In this document: piece by piece, positions 59,944-64,000 of the stretch
Layout of the letters: the number at the start of each line of letters is the position of its first letter
Position numbering within the stretch: position 1 is the stretch's first letter
NCBI RefSeq assembly: GCF_005405925.1
Contig: NZ_BJHV01000001.1
Coordinates: 10,850,001 to 10,914,000 of the forward strand
Direction of reading: 5' to 3'
DNA from: Streptomyces antimycoticus
GTDB lineage: Bacteria; Actinomycetota; Actinomycetes; Streptomycetales; Streptomycetaceae
Length of the DNA stretch: 64,000 nt
Position numbers and translations under genes: made by a program
The notes under the pieces: model-generated
What the model saw: only the letters and a program-made list of their open reading frames with translations
Database searches by the model: none
Told to the model about the DNA's origin: nothing

Positions 59944-60194
59944 CTCTGCCCGGCATGCTCACCGTCGACAATGCCTGAGGAGCTGAGCGCCTGTGTGCGA
60001 TCTCTTGGGTTGGTGTCGGTGGTGGTGAGAGTCGGTCGCGCTGGTCCGGGGGTTGGTGTTACGGGGCTGGTCAGTGGGTGTTTGCGGGTGGGTGGTCCGC
60101 TGTCATGAGATGAGAGATTGATGGGTGGGATCGCTGTCGTGGGGCTTTATCGCATGGCAGCTGATGCGGTCTCAGGTTCGAGAGTTCTTATGCG

Positions 60195-61457
60195 GTGAGG
60201 TGGGCCGGGCCGTGTGATCGTGGGGTGGATCAACAGGTAGAGGCCGGTCGTGGGCCTGTGCTGCCCAGGGAGTTGGTGGTGCGTCGTCTGCTGGAGCGGC
60301 AGCAGGCGGGGGAGCTGGCCACGCGGCATGTGCGTGCGGTCGCTGAGACGGTGGGTGTCTCGGAGCGTACGGTGTGGCGCCGGCTGGAGCAGGCCAAGAC
60401 GACCGGGCAGGTGGAGGCGCCGGTCCGGCAGGGGTATGCGGTGTCGGACGAGGTGTGGGCGCTGCCGGGCGAGGTGGGAGGGAATGTCGCTGAGCTGAGG
60501 CGCCGGCTGGCCACGGCTGGCGGCGGGGCGTCGGTTCCGCCGGCGTCGACGCTGCACCGGGTGATCCGCAGGGACCGCCGGGCGGGCCGGGCGTTGATGG
60601 TCGAGCGGGAGCCTGAGGTGGCCGGGTCACGCAGGCCCGATCCGCTCAGCGAGCTCGGCCTGAACGTCGTGGCCGGCCAAGGTACAGGCGGGCAGGTTTT
60701 TCTGCGGGAGCAGAAGCATCTGGCGCAGGTCCCGGTCCTGGTGCCGGGCGCGCAGGTGGTGCACACGCCTGCTGTGCGGTCGGTGCTGCGGACGGTCGCG
60801 CACGCGGCCGCGGTCGGGGCGGTGGCGTGTCTGTACGGCGATGCCGGCCAGGGCAAGACTGTCGCGTTGCAGTACGCCCTGTCGCAGCTGCCGCACCCGG
60901 CCCGGGTCCGTCGGGTCCATGTCGGTGTGCACCCGACGGTTCCCGAGCTGCGCCGGGTGCTCGCGGACGCCCTGGAGCTGGGCAGGCGTCTGCCGCGCGG
61001 GGCGGGAGAGGCCGATCTGATGCTGGTGAACGCGCTACGGCAGCCTCGTGTGCTGGTGCTGGACGAGGCACAGCGCCTTCCGGGGCCTGCGCTGGAGTTT
61101 CTGCGTGGGTTGTGGGACCACCCGGACACGGACACGGCACTTGTGCTCGCGGGTGCGGGCGGCGAACGGGCGCTGCGCCGTGTGCCTGCGCTGGCCTCTC
61201 GGGTGCTGACCTGGGAGCTGGTGCCGCGCCTTGGTCCGCGCGAGGTGGCCACCGTGATGGCTGCCTTCCACCCGCTGTGGGAGGACGTGAGCGAGGACGA
61301 TGTCGCGTGGGTGGACGAGCATGTGGGACACGGCAACTTCCGGACCTGGGCGAAGCTGACCTCGCACCTGACCGCCGAGACCTATGGCAAGAGCCGGGCG
61401 GTGGTGGACCGCCAGATGCTGGAGCGGGCCTGCGCACGGCTCATGGGGTCGCTGTGA
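60195..61457 (+). CDS. TniB-type AAA+ ATPase fused to a transposase-like DNA-binding N-terminus
   Basis: 420 residues (410 if the GTG at 60225 is used). Part 1 (about 28-165): helix-turn-helix LATRHVRAVAETVGVSERTV, WRRLEQAK, then VPPASTLHRVIRRDRRAGRA; the next gene, a TniA-type transposase, has the same series (TTRHVRLMADSLEVTERTVW, PTLHRAIHRD). Part 2 (about 170-420): AAA+ ATPase with Walker A LYGDAGQGKTVALQYALSQL, Walker B RVLVLDEAQRLPGPALEFLR, sensor region DTALVLAGAGGERALRR, ending FRTWAKLTSHLTAETYG. TniB/TnsC ATPases pick target DNA and activate the transposase. No catalytic DDE core is present. Frame intact; stop overlaps the next start (GTGA). Confidence 0.85.
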   Translation: MRWAGPCDRGVDQQVEAGRGPVLPRELVVRRLLERQQAGELATRHVRAVAETVGVSERTVWRRLEQAKTTGQVEAPVRQGYAVSDEVWALPGEVGGNVAELRRRLATAGGGASVPPASTLHRVIRRDRRAGRALMVEREPEVAGSRRPDPLSELGLNVVAGQGTGGQVFLREQKHLAQVPVLVPGAQVVHTPAVRSVLRTVAHAAAVGAVACLYGDAGQGKTVALQYALSQLPHPARVRRVHVGVHPTVPELRRVLADALELGRRLPRGAGEADLMLVNALRQPRVLVLDEAQRLPGPALEFLRGLWDHPDTDTALVLAGAGGERALRRVPALASRVLTWELVPRLGPREVATVMAAFHPLWEDVSEDDVAWVDEHVGHGNFRTWAKLTSHLTAETYGKSRAVVDRQMLERACARLMGSL

Positions 61458-63065
61458 CTGGCGCAGCCGGGCGGCCGGAACAGGGCGCTTCCCGCTCCGG
61501 TGCGCATGGGGAGAGCGGGGGCGTGCGGGGAGGCCTGCCTTCTTCCTCCCTGTCGGCGCTGCGCGGCCCTGCCGTGCGCAGGCTGCTAGCCCTGCGGCAG
61601 GAACAGAGACTGACGACCCGACACGTACGGCTGATGGCGGACTCGTTGGAAGTGACTGAGCGCACGGTGTGGCGGTGGCTGGCCGCTGCCGAGCGCGATG
61701 AAGCCGCCGCTGAGGAGCCCGGGGCGCGGGCCCAGAGCCGGGACCGCTTCTCTGTCACCCCCGAAGTGCGCCGCCTGCTGGCCTTGTGGAAGGGCAACGT
61801 CGCGGCGGTCCATCGTGAGCTGACCGCTCGCGCGGCCAGGGGCGAGGGGGCCCGCCTCCGTCGATTCCGACGCTGCACCGGGCGATCCACCGTGATCTGA
61901 CGCCGGGGGAGCGGGCCGGACTTGCGGGTGGGGAGCGGGCGGCACGTAAGCACGATGTGTTCCTGGCCCGGCCGCGGGGTTGGCGCAACCAGGTGTGGGA
62001 GACCGACCACGTGCAGGCCCCGGTTCTGGTCGACGTTGATGGCAGGGCCCGCCGGCCGTGGATCACCTGGTTCACCGACTGCGCCACCAACGCGATCACC
62101 GGTGTCGCGGTGACACCGGTGCATCCGTCGCGGGAGTCGGTGCTGTCCGCGCTGCGCTCCGCAGTCCTGCGCGAGGACCCCTACGGCCCGTTCGGCGGCC
62201 TGCCCGAGAAAGTACGTGTCGACCGTGGCAAGGACTTCCTGTCCCGGACGGTAACCGCCGCGTTCGACCTCCTGGACGTGACGGTGGAGGACCTGCCCGC
62301 CTACACCCCCACCTCAAGGGCACTGTGGAGGGGCTGAACCGGGCGGTGGAGAGCATGTTCCTGGCCGCGCTGCCCGGCTATGCCCGCCAGCCGCGCCCCG
62401 GCAAACGGCCTTCCCGCCCGAAGGACGAGGTGCTGCTCGGCTTCGAGGACTTCACCGCCCGGCTGCTGGACTGGACACGGTGGTGGAACACCGAACACTG
62501 CCCCGCACCCCTGCGGGGCAGGACTCCACTTGAAGTGTGGCAGGACGATCCCACCCCGCTGCGGGACGTGCCGGCCGCGGATCTGTGGACGTTCACCCTG
62601 GAGGACGCCGGCACCCGCACGCTGACCACCCGCGGCATCCGCTTCAGGAAACGCGACTACGTGGGGCCGTGGATGACCGGCCAGGCCGGAACCCAGGTCC
62701 GCATCCGCTTCATGCCCCACCACGACCACCGCATCGAGGTCTACCACGCCGCCACCGGCCGCTACCTCGGACCCGCGGACCTGGCCGACCAGGCCACTGA
62801 GGAACAGGTCAGCGCCGTACGGCGAGCCCGGGCCGCCCGCAGCCGCCGTCTGAAGAAGGACCTCGAAGCTGCCCAGCGCGAGCGCTACGCCGCCGCTACC
62901 CAGGCCGAACCCCCTCGGCGGCTCGGCGCACTGACCGGTGCACAGGCCGACACCGAACTCGCCCGGAACGCCGACACCAGCCTGTCGCAGCTCGCGCTGC
63001 CGGACGTCATCCCGCCCGCCGCGCCCCGGCCGACTGGCGTACCCCGCCATCCCTGGCCGCGCTGA
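61454..63065 (+). pseudogene. TniA/TnsB-type (Mu-like) DDE transposase, two frameshifts
   Basis: GTG 61454 overlaps the preceding stop. N-terminal HTH TTRHVRLMADSLEVTERTVW, LLALWKGNVAAVHRELTARA; a one-base slip near 61850; then TLHRAIHRDLTPGERAGLAG, catalytic D in VWETDHVQAPVLVDVDGRAR, D in EKVRVDRGKDFLSRTVTAAF; a second slip near 62315 in a C-run; then HLKGTVEGLNRAVESMF with the Glu, WWNTEHCPAPLRGRTPLEVW, and the Mu-type C-terminal barrel (RGIRFRKRDYVGPWMTGQAG) to 63065. With two bases restored it would be 537 residues with a complete D-D-E. Confidence 0.85.
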
Positions 63066-63180
63066 CCACGACGGCCCGCCCCGCCCCGCTCCCGCCAGGC
63101 CGTGACTCCGCCCCCGCAGTCCCCGACGGCCCGGCCGGACGGGCCGTACCCTCCACCACCGACGAAGACGGAGACGCCTC

Positions 63181-63925
63181 GTGACCGCGGCCACCTACCA
63201 GTACGTCGACCTGCCCGACGCCTCCGTGGTCACCACCCGCGCCCTGCTCACCGCCCGCGAGAACATCACCGACACCGTCGCCGCCCGCGCGATGATGTGC
63301 ATCCACGGCGGCGCCGGCTTCGGCAAAACCCTCGCCGTCAACACCTGCCTGCGCGAACTCGAACCCGCCGGCGAGGACGTCCGCAAGATCACCTTCCGGG
63401 CCCGGCCCACCGCCCGAGCGGTGTGCTATGAACTGTTCACCGCCCTCGACCTGGCCGGCGAGCCACCGCGCCACCCAGCGAATTCGACCGCCTGCTGAAG
63501 ACCGCCCTGGCCGAACGCCCCCGCACTTTCCTCGTCGACGAGGCCCAGTGGCTCAACGGCGAGGCGTTCGAGTACTTCCGCTACCTGTGGGACGAACCCT
63601 CCACCCAGCTCGCGATCATCTTCGTCGGCGGCGAGGGCTGCCACACCGTGCTGCGCCGCGAACCGATGCTCTCCTCCCGCATCTTCATCTGGCAGCACTT
63701 CACCCGCCTCACACCCAGCGAAGTCCTCGACGTCATCCCTCTGTTCCACCCCATCTGGGCCGACGCCGACCCCGACGACATCACCTTCGCCGACAGCCAC
63801 GCCGCACACGGCAACTTCCGCGCCTGGGCCCAACTGACCGCCCACACCCGCACCGCCCTGGCCCGCACCGGCCGCCCCGCGTCGACCAGGAACTGCTGCG
63901 CTGGGCCTTCAGCCGCCTCGCCTGA
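63181..63925 (+). pseudogene. second TniB-type AAA+ ATPase, frameshifted
   Basis: GTG 63181: YQYVDLPDASVVTTRALLTA, Walker A CIHGGAGFGKTLAVNTCLRE, then a frame change near 63480; EFDRLLKTALAERPRTFLVD with Walker B FLVDEAQWLNGEAFEYFRYL, IIFVGGEGCHTVLRREPMLS, DSHAAHGNFRAWAQLTAHTR; another change near 63880 to RVDQELLRWAFSRLA, stop 63925. Without the HTH it is the plain TniB length (about 250). It aligns by eye with the C-terminal ATPase part of the gene at 60195. Confidence 0.85.
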
Positions 63926-63938
63926 CCACCCCACCGCC

Positions 63939-64000
63939 ATGCCCCTCGCCGCGCCACCGCCGCCCGTCACCGTGGTCATCGACCGCCATGACGACGCGAT
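63939..64000 (+). CDS. start of a further gene, cut by window end
   Basis: ATG 63939 reads MPLAAPPPPVTVVIDRHDDA to the edge. Too short to identify; in TniA-TniB modules the next gene is often tniQ, which is only a position-based guess. Confidence 0.25.
   Translation, partial: MPLAAPPPPVTVVIDRHDDA

Follow-up and report, generated by a model that had tools for sequence, protein, structure and literature searches.

The window analysed here is a stretch of 64,000 nucleotides from Streptomyces antimycoticus, covering bases 10,850,001–10,914,000 near the right end of a 10,917,594-base contig (genome 11.17 Mb). It contains a gene whose product combines a DNA-binding module of transposase type with an ATPase of the TnsC/TniB/MuB type. 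As judged by alignment with its neighbours, this fusion protein is a chimera, in which the first third is homologous to the N-terminal double helix-turn-helix (HTH) of the adjacent Mu/TniA-type transposase and the remainder to TniB of the same module. The identity of the protein, and the existence of a family to which it belongs, can be stated with high confidence. Homology, gene order and position support the view that the protein is a second TnsC/MuB-like ATPase, of specialised type, in a family of telomere-associated MuA/TniA-type elements of the Streptomycetaceae.

A transposase DNA-binding module joined to a transposition ATPase

The open reading frame (ORF) put forward in the original prediction, 60195–61457 on the forward strand, is present and open over 420 amino acids. 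The start at 60195 is less secure: the GTG at 60225 is the one which fits the relatives (410 amino acids, VDQQVEAGRG...) and is more likely to be used, so that residues 1–10 of the longer version are probably untranslated. Residue numbers throughout follow the 420-residue version.

Both halves of the protein find their counterparts within the module itself. Using the partner genes of the left repeat copy described below, residues 27–133 match the N-terminus of the transposase (44% identity, E 3.0e-11) and residues 181–416 match TniB (40% identity, E 3.5e-47). Profile comparison with hhalign relates the N-half (64 sequences) to the N-terminal domain of TniA (42 sequences) with a probability of 99.8 and E 2.2e-28 over 116 columns, and the C-half to TniB with a probability of 100 and E 5.5e-57; the control comparison, N-half against TniB, gave 0.1. 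By these alignments the chimeric make-up is well beyond chance, and the kinship with a transposase DNA-binding domain that had been predicted for the N-terminal part is borne out. The helix RTVWRWL is common to the N-domain and TniA, and the conserved arginines are kept. The ATPase half is matched by PF13401 (51.3 bits, cut-off 27) and by the PHROG family 'DNA transposition protein' (6.9e-20), and its top matches in the fold comparisons with Foldseek and VIA are MuB and TnsC, a family absent from the list of fold matches not being counted as lacking. The profile of the N-domain found nothing better than E 0.56 among PDB sequences, and the window protein nothing better than E 0.14 in NCBIfam.

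The same architecture, for which a search of other genomes had been proposed, recurs in several genera of the family to which the window belongs. Of 7992 candidates scored, 102 proteins matched the fusion, some of them fragments or chimeras. Near-full-length fusions, defined as extending from model position 47 or earlier to 350 or later, occur in 28 of 392 genomes among the matches listed in the genus search, whose tally of 119 takes in TniB-only matches. The family search (150 genomes) added the genera g139, g141, g143 and g150, and in part g147. At class level near-full-length copies were found in six of 394 genomes, all from the genus of the window, and the nine genomes with matches outside that genus hold TniA- or TniB-like pieces only.

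In a tree of ATPase domains the fusions form one clade of 18 rows with support 97/92, and in a tree of N-domains one clade of 17 rows with support 100/99. After thinning by identity the first tree comprised 16 of 64 fusion C-halves, 18 of 62 TniB sequences and 17 others, and the second 17 fusion N-domains (of 21 left from 64), nine TniA N-domains (of ten left from 42) and five others. Any row lacking the expected pattern had been removed, and the long branches L132, L151, L152 and L158 limit what can be read from the deeper order. Since each half forms a single clade, a TniB paralogue would most simply have acquired its copy of the transposase double-HTH module in one event. Omega, calculated over 14 pairs which share sequences, ranges from 0.18 to 0.46 for the N-domain and from 0.06 to 0.17 for the ATPase domain; by this measure the fusion is under purifying selection, with the stronger constraint on the ATPase half.

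Several variants were encountered alongside the family. At L151 (G095) two TniB-like genes stand in tandem, the second being the nearest row, on a long branch, to the fusion ATPase clade; this may represent an ancestral two-ATPase state. Tandem TniB-like genes also occur in other Streptomyces modules (rows G332, G100, G293 and G351). At L132 (G199), where the order is TniA–TniB–variant, TniB is followed by a divergent HTH–ATPase whose Walker B reads DDIQ and which matches no more than the beginning of the fusion N-domain profile; in L055 a second fusion-like match comes after TniB. From 7470 in L074 there is an ATPase which groups with the fusions and whose N-terminal part has no match to the fusion N-domain profile, suggestive of domain swap or decay. 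In P0025 of Streptomyces tendae and in L033 the front of a fusion is joined to the end of a TniB, a junction that seems to have arisen when the two ATPase domains recombined.

Table 1. Features of the element in the window (positions of the window; residues of the 420-residue version)
Feature	Position	Strand	Remarks
Element left end (TGCGATCTCTTGGG...), with GTGAGAG-type repeated motifs; probable promoter region of the fusion gene	59996..60224	+	
Fusion gene: double HTH plus TnsC/TniB/MuB-type AAA+ ATPase, 410 aa	60225..61457	+	
HTH 1, recognition helix ..RTVWR(W)L, residues 25-70	60267..60404	+	residue 63 is R in the window copy
HTH 2, STLHRVIRRD, residues 85-130	60447..60584	+	residues 91 and 116 are P in the window copy
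AAA+ domain, residues 183-417	60741..61445	+	PF13401 51.3 bits, PHROG, fold matches
Walker A, GDAGQGKT	60837-60860	+	inside the fusion AAA+ domain
Walker B, VLDEAQ	61056-61073	+	inside the fusion AAA+ domain
TniA/MuA-type DDE transposase	61454..63184	+	one-base indels near 61846, 62306 and 63024, absent from the left copy
Ordinary TniB-type ATPase, 248 aa in the left copy	63181..63925	+	indels near 63474 and 63875, window copy only
orf4, beginning only	63939..64000	+	runs past the window end; 369 aa in L018

The element and its location near contig ends

The genes are arranged in the order fusion–TniA–TniB–orf4. The start of TniA overlaps the stop of the fusion in a GTGA, both in the window and at locus L018, and in the window the start of TniB overlaps the stop of TniA in the same way. 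Gene order was counted over 57 named loci in which the fusion aligned in one piece on the plus strand, 48 of them with 3 kb of room and 38 with 4.5 kb. TniA follows the fusion in 47 of the 48, the exception being L027, and an ordinary TniB is present in 45 (absent from L027, L061 and L087). The prediction was thus right to see a TnsC/TniB ATPase in the fusion, but not to take it for the TniB of its module: it is an additional, second ATPase, upstream of TniA, with the ordinary one downstream. With 4.5 kb of room, orf4 was found in 30 loci, a convergent Tpg-like gene in 24 and Tap in 11.

The neighbouring proteins were characterised at L018. Here TniA matches Mu-transpos_C (43.2 bits) and PHROG transposase (1e-57), TniB matches AAA_22 (59.4 bits), Tap scores 1122 in NCBIfam against a cut-off of 600, and two Tpg proteins score 299.5 and 180 against a cut-off of 90. 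The lower-scoring Tpg (180 bits) is the product of the convergent Tpg-like gene (L018:12836-13348, minus strand), which follows orf4, stands apart from Tap–Tpg and is 43% identical to the element Tpg. Conserved sequence upstream of this gene may be just its promoter; GTGRGAGA-like words were seen there by eye on the opposite strand. TniQ had no match among the six L018 element proteins (Pfam, E 0.1) or in the window fusion (E 1), the scan being limited to these. The L018 orf4 product had no match at E 0.1 in any of Pfam, NCBIfam and PHROGs, and its best match among PDB sequences (E 0.11) is not telling; from an alignment one might guess that it is an inactive tyrosine recombinase like TnsF.

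The left end of the element is defined by comparison with 13 other loci, whose homology to the window repeat begins at 59,996 or up to nine bases earlier and whose flanks differ. TGCGA stands at this end in all 14 loci compared, the window included; the comparison covers the closer sequence group, leaving aside later-starting matches (for instance L014, L016, L022, L023 and L054) and a more distant group. The GTGAGAG-type repeats found here are a weak lead only. A right transposon end was sought and not found. At L012 (7609-7795) the left end of an element adjoins an orf4 fragment of another copy, as if it had inserted into a sibling.

A second, identical fusion protein is encoded on the opposite strand near the left end of the window's contig (21,493–22,752). 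Bases 15,334–38,439 at the left are the reverse complement of the right end with 99.8% identity, and this repeat of some 23 kb is, by its arrangement, a terminal inverted repeat as in a linear chromosome. Between the two copies there are two mismatches and 38 gaps, the latter amounting to 39 bases; 37 of these gap bases fall in runs of at least two equal bases, 29 of them in runs of at least three, and all five indels within the window TniA and TniB lie in runs of four to six. Since both reading frames are open in the left copy, the frameshifts of the window are most simply put down to errors made in sequencing or assembling the right copy. The status of the fusion as the intact gene of the module had been taken to argue for selection; with TniA and TniB open in the left copy, that argument falls away.

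The window element cannot be taken as a complete transposon and was rejected as such: homology breaks off inside orf4, at coordinate 64282 beyond the window, where there is a 274-amino-acid frame whose remainder is unlike orf4. The window fusion also carries W63R and L91P, at two sites where all 68 other alignment rows agree, and S116P, at a site fixed in 67 of them; it departs further at P419. Three or more such departures in the N-domain occur in seven of the 69 rows, itself included. Because the element is truncated on the right and three conserved N-domain sites are altered, the window copy is probably inactive, a relic.

Other features of this contig were noted in passing. At the extreme left contig end a TniA/TniB-like module of a different kind was seen by eye, with a TniQ-like ORF of 446 amino acids after it, transcribed inwards (L008, G000:C1:9-4534); a telomere-like palindrome was not seen in the first 240 bases there. 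Only one match in the genome exceeds the Tpg cut-off; it is located 470 kb in from the left end (G000:C1:470251-470793, 305 bits), with a weak partial one at 82 kb (G000:C1:81603-81791).

The genus search gave 29 near-full-length copies on contigs of at least 150 kb. For 27 of them a contig end is no more than 50 kb away, and 26 of the 27 are transcribed in its direction. Some of the contigs are drafts, whose ends need not be telomeres, and copies at both ends of one repeat are not independent. Six more near-full-length copies (four in G732, whose contig sizes were deduced from the symmetry of its copies, the others in G860 and G844) and a shorter one in G785 (positions 4–325) fit this pattern. 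Copies in G662, G701, G797, G809, G810 and G811, on contigs of unknown length, were left uncounted, as were partial copies, among them some farther in, on G732 C2 at 59 kb and, in two pieces, in G384 at 92 kb. In G067 and G732 a chromosome and a second contig bear fusion copies at either end.

Certain observations weigh against a special relationship between the fusion and chromosome ends. Both G007 copies are internal, on a contig possibly cut open elsewhere, and in G083 one copy of the two is directed inwards. In a rough control, moreover, TniB-like rows without a listed fusion were also often near contig ends. Proximity is therefore not special to the fusion, though direction may be; two of the control rows, G049 and G129, point inward.

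Telomere-like palindromes were recognised by eye at three contig ends (L121, L126 and L127). At several loci other genes, helicase-like ORFs among them, separate the element from the contig end. As these genes intervene and the right boundary of the element is undefined, the element is called telomere-associated only. Helicase-like ORFs were identified by eye at L122:602-3220, L128:927-2287 and L130:615-3623, where they occupy part of the interval from the Tpg-like gene to the contig end.

What the fused ATPase may do

The near identity of RTVWRWL in fusion and TniA suggests that fusion and transposase most likely share the end repeats as binding sites. It is attractive to consider that the fused ATPase is held at the element's own end through its HTH module, where it would join or seed the assembly of TniB and steer TniA, either in engaging the target or in marking self DNA for immunity. 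Such tethering to the element ends is put forward tentatively, as somewhat short of an even chance.

The Walker residues may add to this picture. The Walker A lysine, K221, and D290 are kept in all 69 alignment rows, and the second acid of Walker B is glutamate in 25 rows and aspartate in 44. Among 71 fusion proteins taken from the loci, the motif reads DEAQ in 32, DDAQ in 24 and DDVQ in 12, with three unmatched by the pattern; the partner TniB has DEAQ in 63 of 66, again with three unmatched. The aspartate-type rows fall, by eye, in one part of the ATPase tree. Replacement of the glutamate in part of the family suggests ATP binding with slow hydrolysis, and so a stable tether. The fuller proposal, of an ATPase which reads the transposon's own ends, is probably impaired in hydrolysis in one part of the family and would serve target engagement or self-recognition at chromosome ends without TniQ, is possible but falls short of being probable.

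The main rival would make the fusion a target selector, its HTH module reading telomeric or subtelomeric DNA and its ATPase passing the site to TniB and TniA in place of TniQ/TnsD. The lack of a TniQ match in the six L018 proteins and the window fusion is in keeping with this, as are the copies at both ends of replicons in G067 and G732; in the available part of a CRISPR classification paper, the CRISPR-associated transposon (CAST) associated with telomeric transposons is likewise without TniQ/TnsD. The recognition helix, however, has stayed transposase-like rather than diverging, orf4 is an equally good candidate for the role, and proximity to contig ends is shared by TniB-like rows for which no fusion is listed. 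A selector function thus seems unlikely, if still worth serious attention.

The fusion comes first in the operon, and in the window 229 bp separate its start from the left end. Its HTH module might instead bind this end, which is probably also the promoter, and control expression, with the ATPase secondary. Autoregulation of this kind is made improbable by the greater constraint on the ATPase half and by a Walker A lysine invariant in 69 of 69 rows. It is similarly doubtful, and a shade more so, that the N-domain is a protein–protein or dimerisation module rather than a DNA binder: IstB does dimerise through its N-terminal domain (PMC11208146, in the part available), but the two HTHs of the fusion are homologous to the transposase module and retain RTVWR and the conserved arginines. 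Lastly, a one-off deletion between TniA and TniB, for which later fusion/TniB chimeras such as P0025 of S. tendae offer a precedent, is ruled out as an origin by the existence of a recurrent family, with 102 related proteins (some fragments), one clade in each tree, omega below 0.5 and separate TniA and TniB genes still in the module.

Relation to known transposition systems

The component parts are of known kinds. With the Tn7-like TnsB/TnsC/TniQ and Tn5053-type TniA/TniB/TniQ systems the element shares a TnsB-like DDE transposase with Mu-transpos_C and a TnsC-like ATPase; it differs in having two ATPases, and TniQ is unmatched at L018. Resemblance to MuA and MuB of phage Mu is seen in the matches to PHROG 'transposase' and 'DNA transposition protein', which we take to be Mu-type families, and in the presence of MuB among the top folds. 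The N-domain of MuB is of another HTH type. To our knowledge the ATPase of known systems meets the element ends only through the transposase. The element also recalls the telomeric transposons of linear bacterial genomes, which lie at the ends of linear replicons and have one specific transposon end, the telomere being the second boundary. It, too, occurs close to the ends of linear Streptomyces replicons and has one specific end; some of its relatives carry telomere-protein genes, which the window copy, cut off within orf4, does not, and TniQ is unmatched at L018. Telomeric transposons are reportedly the subject of a study by Hsieh et al. (Science 2025, eadp1973).

Extensions of such ATPases, and extra copies of them, have been described. 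In the parts available of PMC11208146, MuB has an N-terminal extension, IS21 IstA has two HTH domains, and IstB has a small N-terminal extension which dimerises and is not described as a transposase HTH module. The extension of the fusion, by contrast, is a copy of the transposase N-domain, carried by a second ATPase beside a plain one. A figure legend in a survey (PMC10293859, likewise seen in part) marks loci with additional, distinct tnsC genes; an HTH–TnsC fusion is not described there. Nor is a TnsC/TniB fused to a transposase N-domain described in the available parts of PMC12669027, PMC13228271, PMC11406308, PMC11208146, PMC8743542 and PMC10293859, or in the titles and opening lines of abstracts returned by literature searches, a set which does not cover Hsieh et al. 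2025; PMC7205883 does not contain the terms looked for.

How ATPases of the TnsC/MuB type distinguish the ends of their element from target DNA is a question of central importance for Mu, Tn7 and the CRISPR-guided transposons. The Walker B motifs suggest that ATP hydrolysis may have become slower in part of the fusion family, the partner ATPase having retained its catalytic residue. A natural ATPase equipped with an end-binding-type module of the transposase makes end-tethering directly testable, in elements which are located near the ends of linear chromosomes and some of which bear telomere-protein genes.
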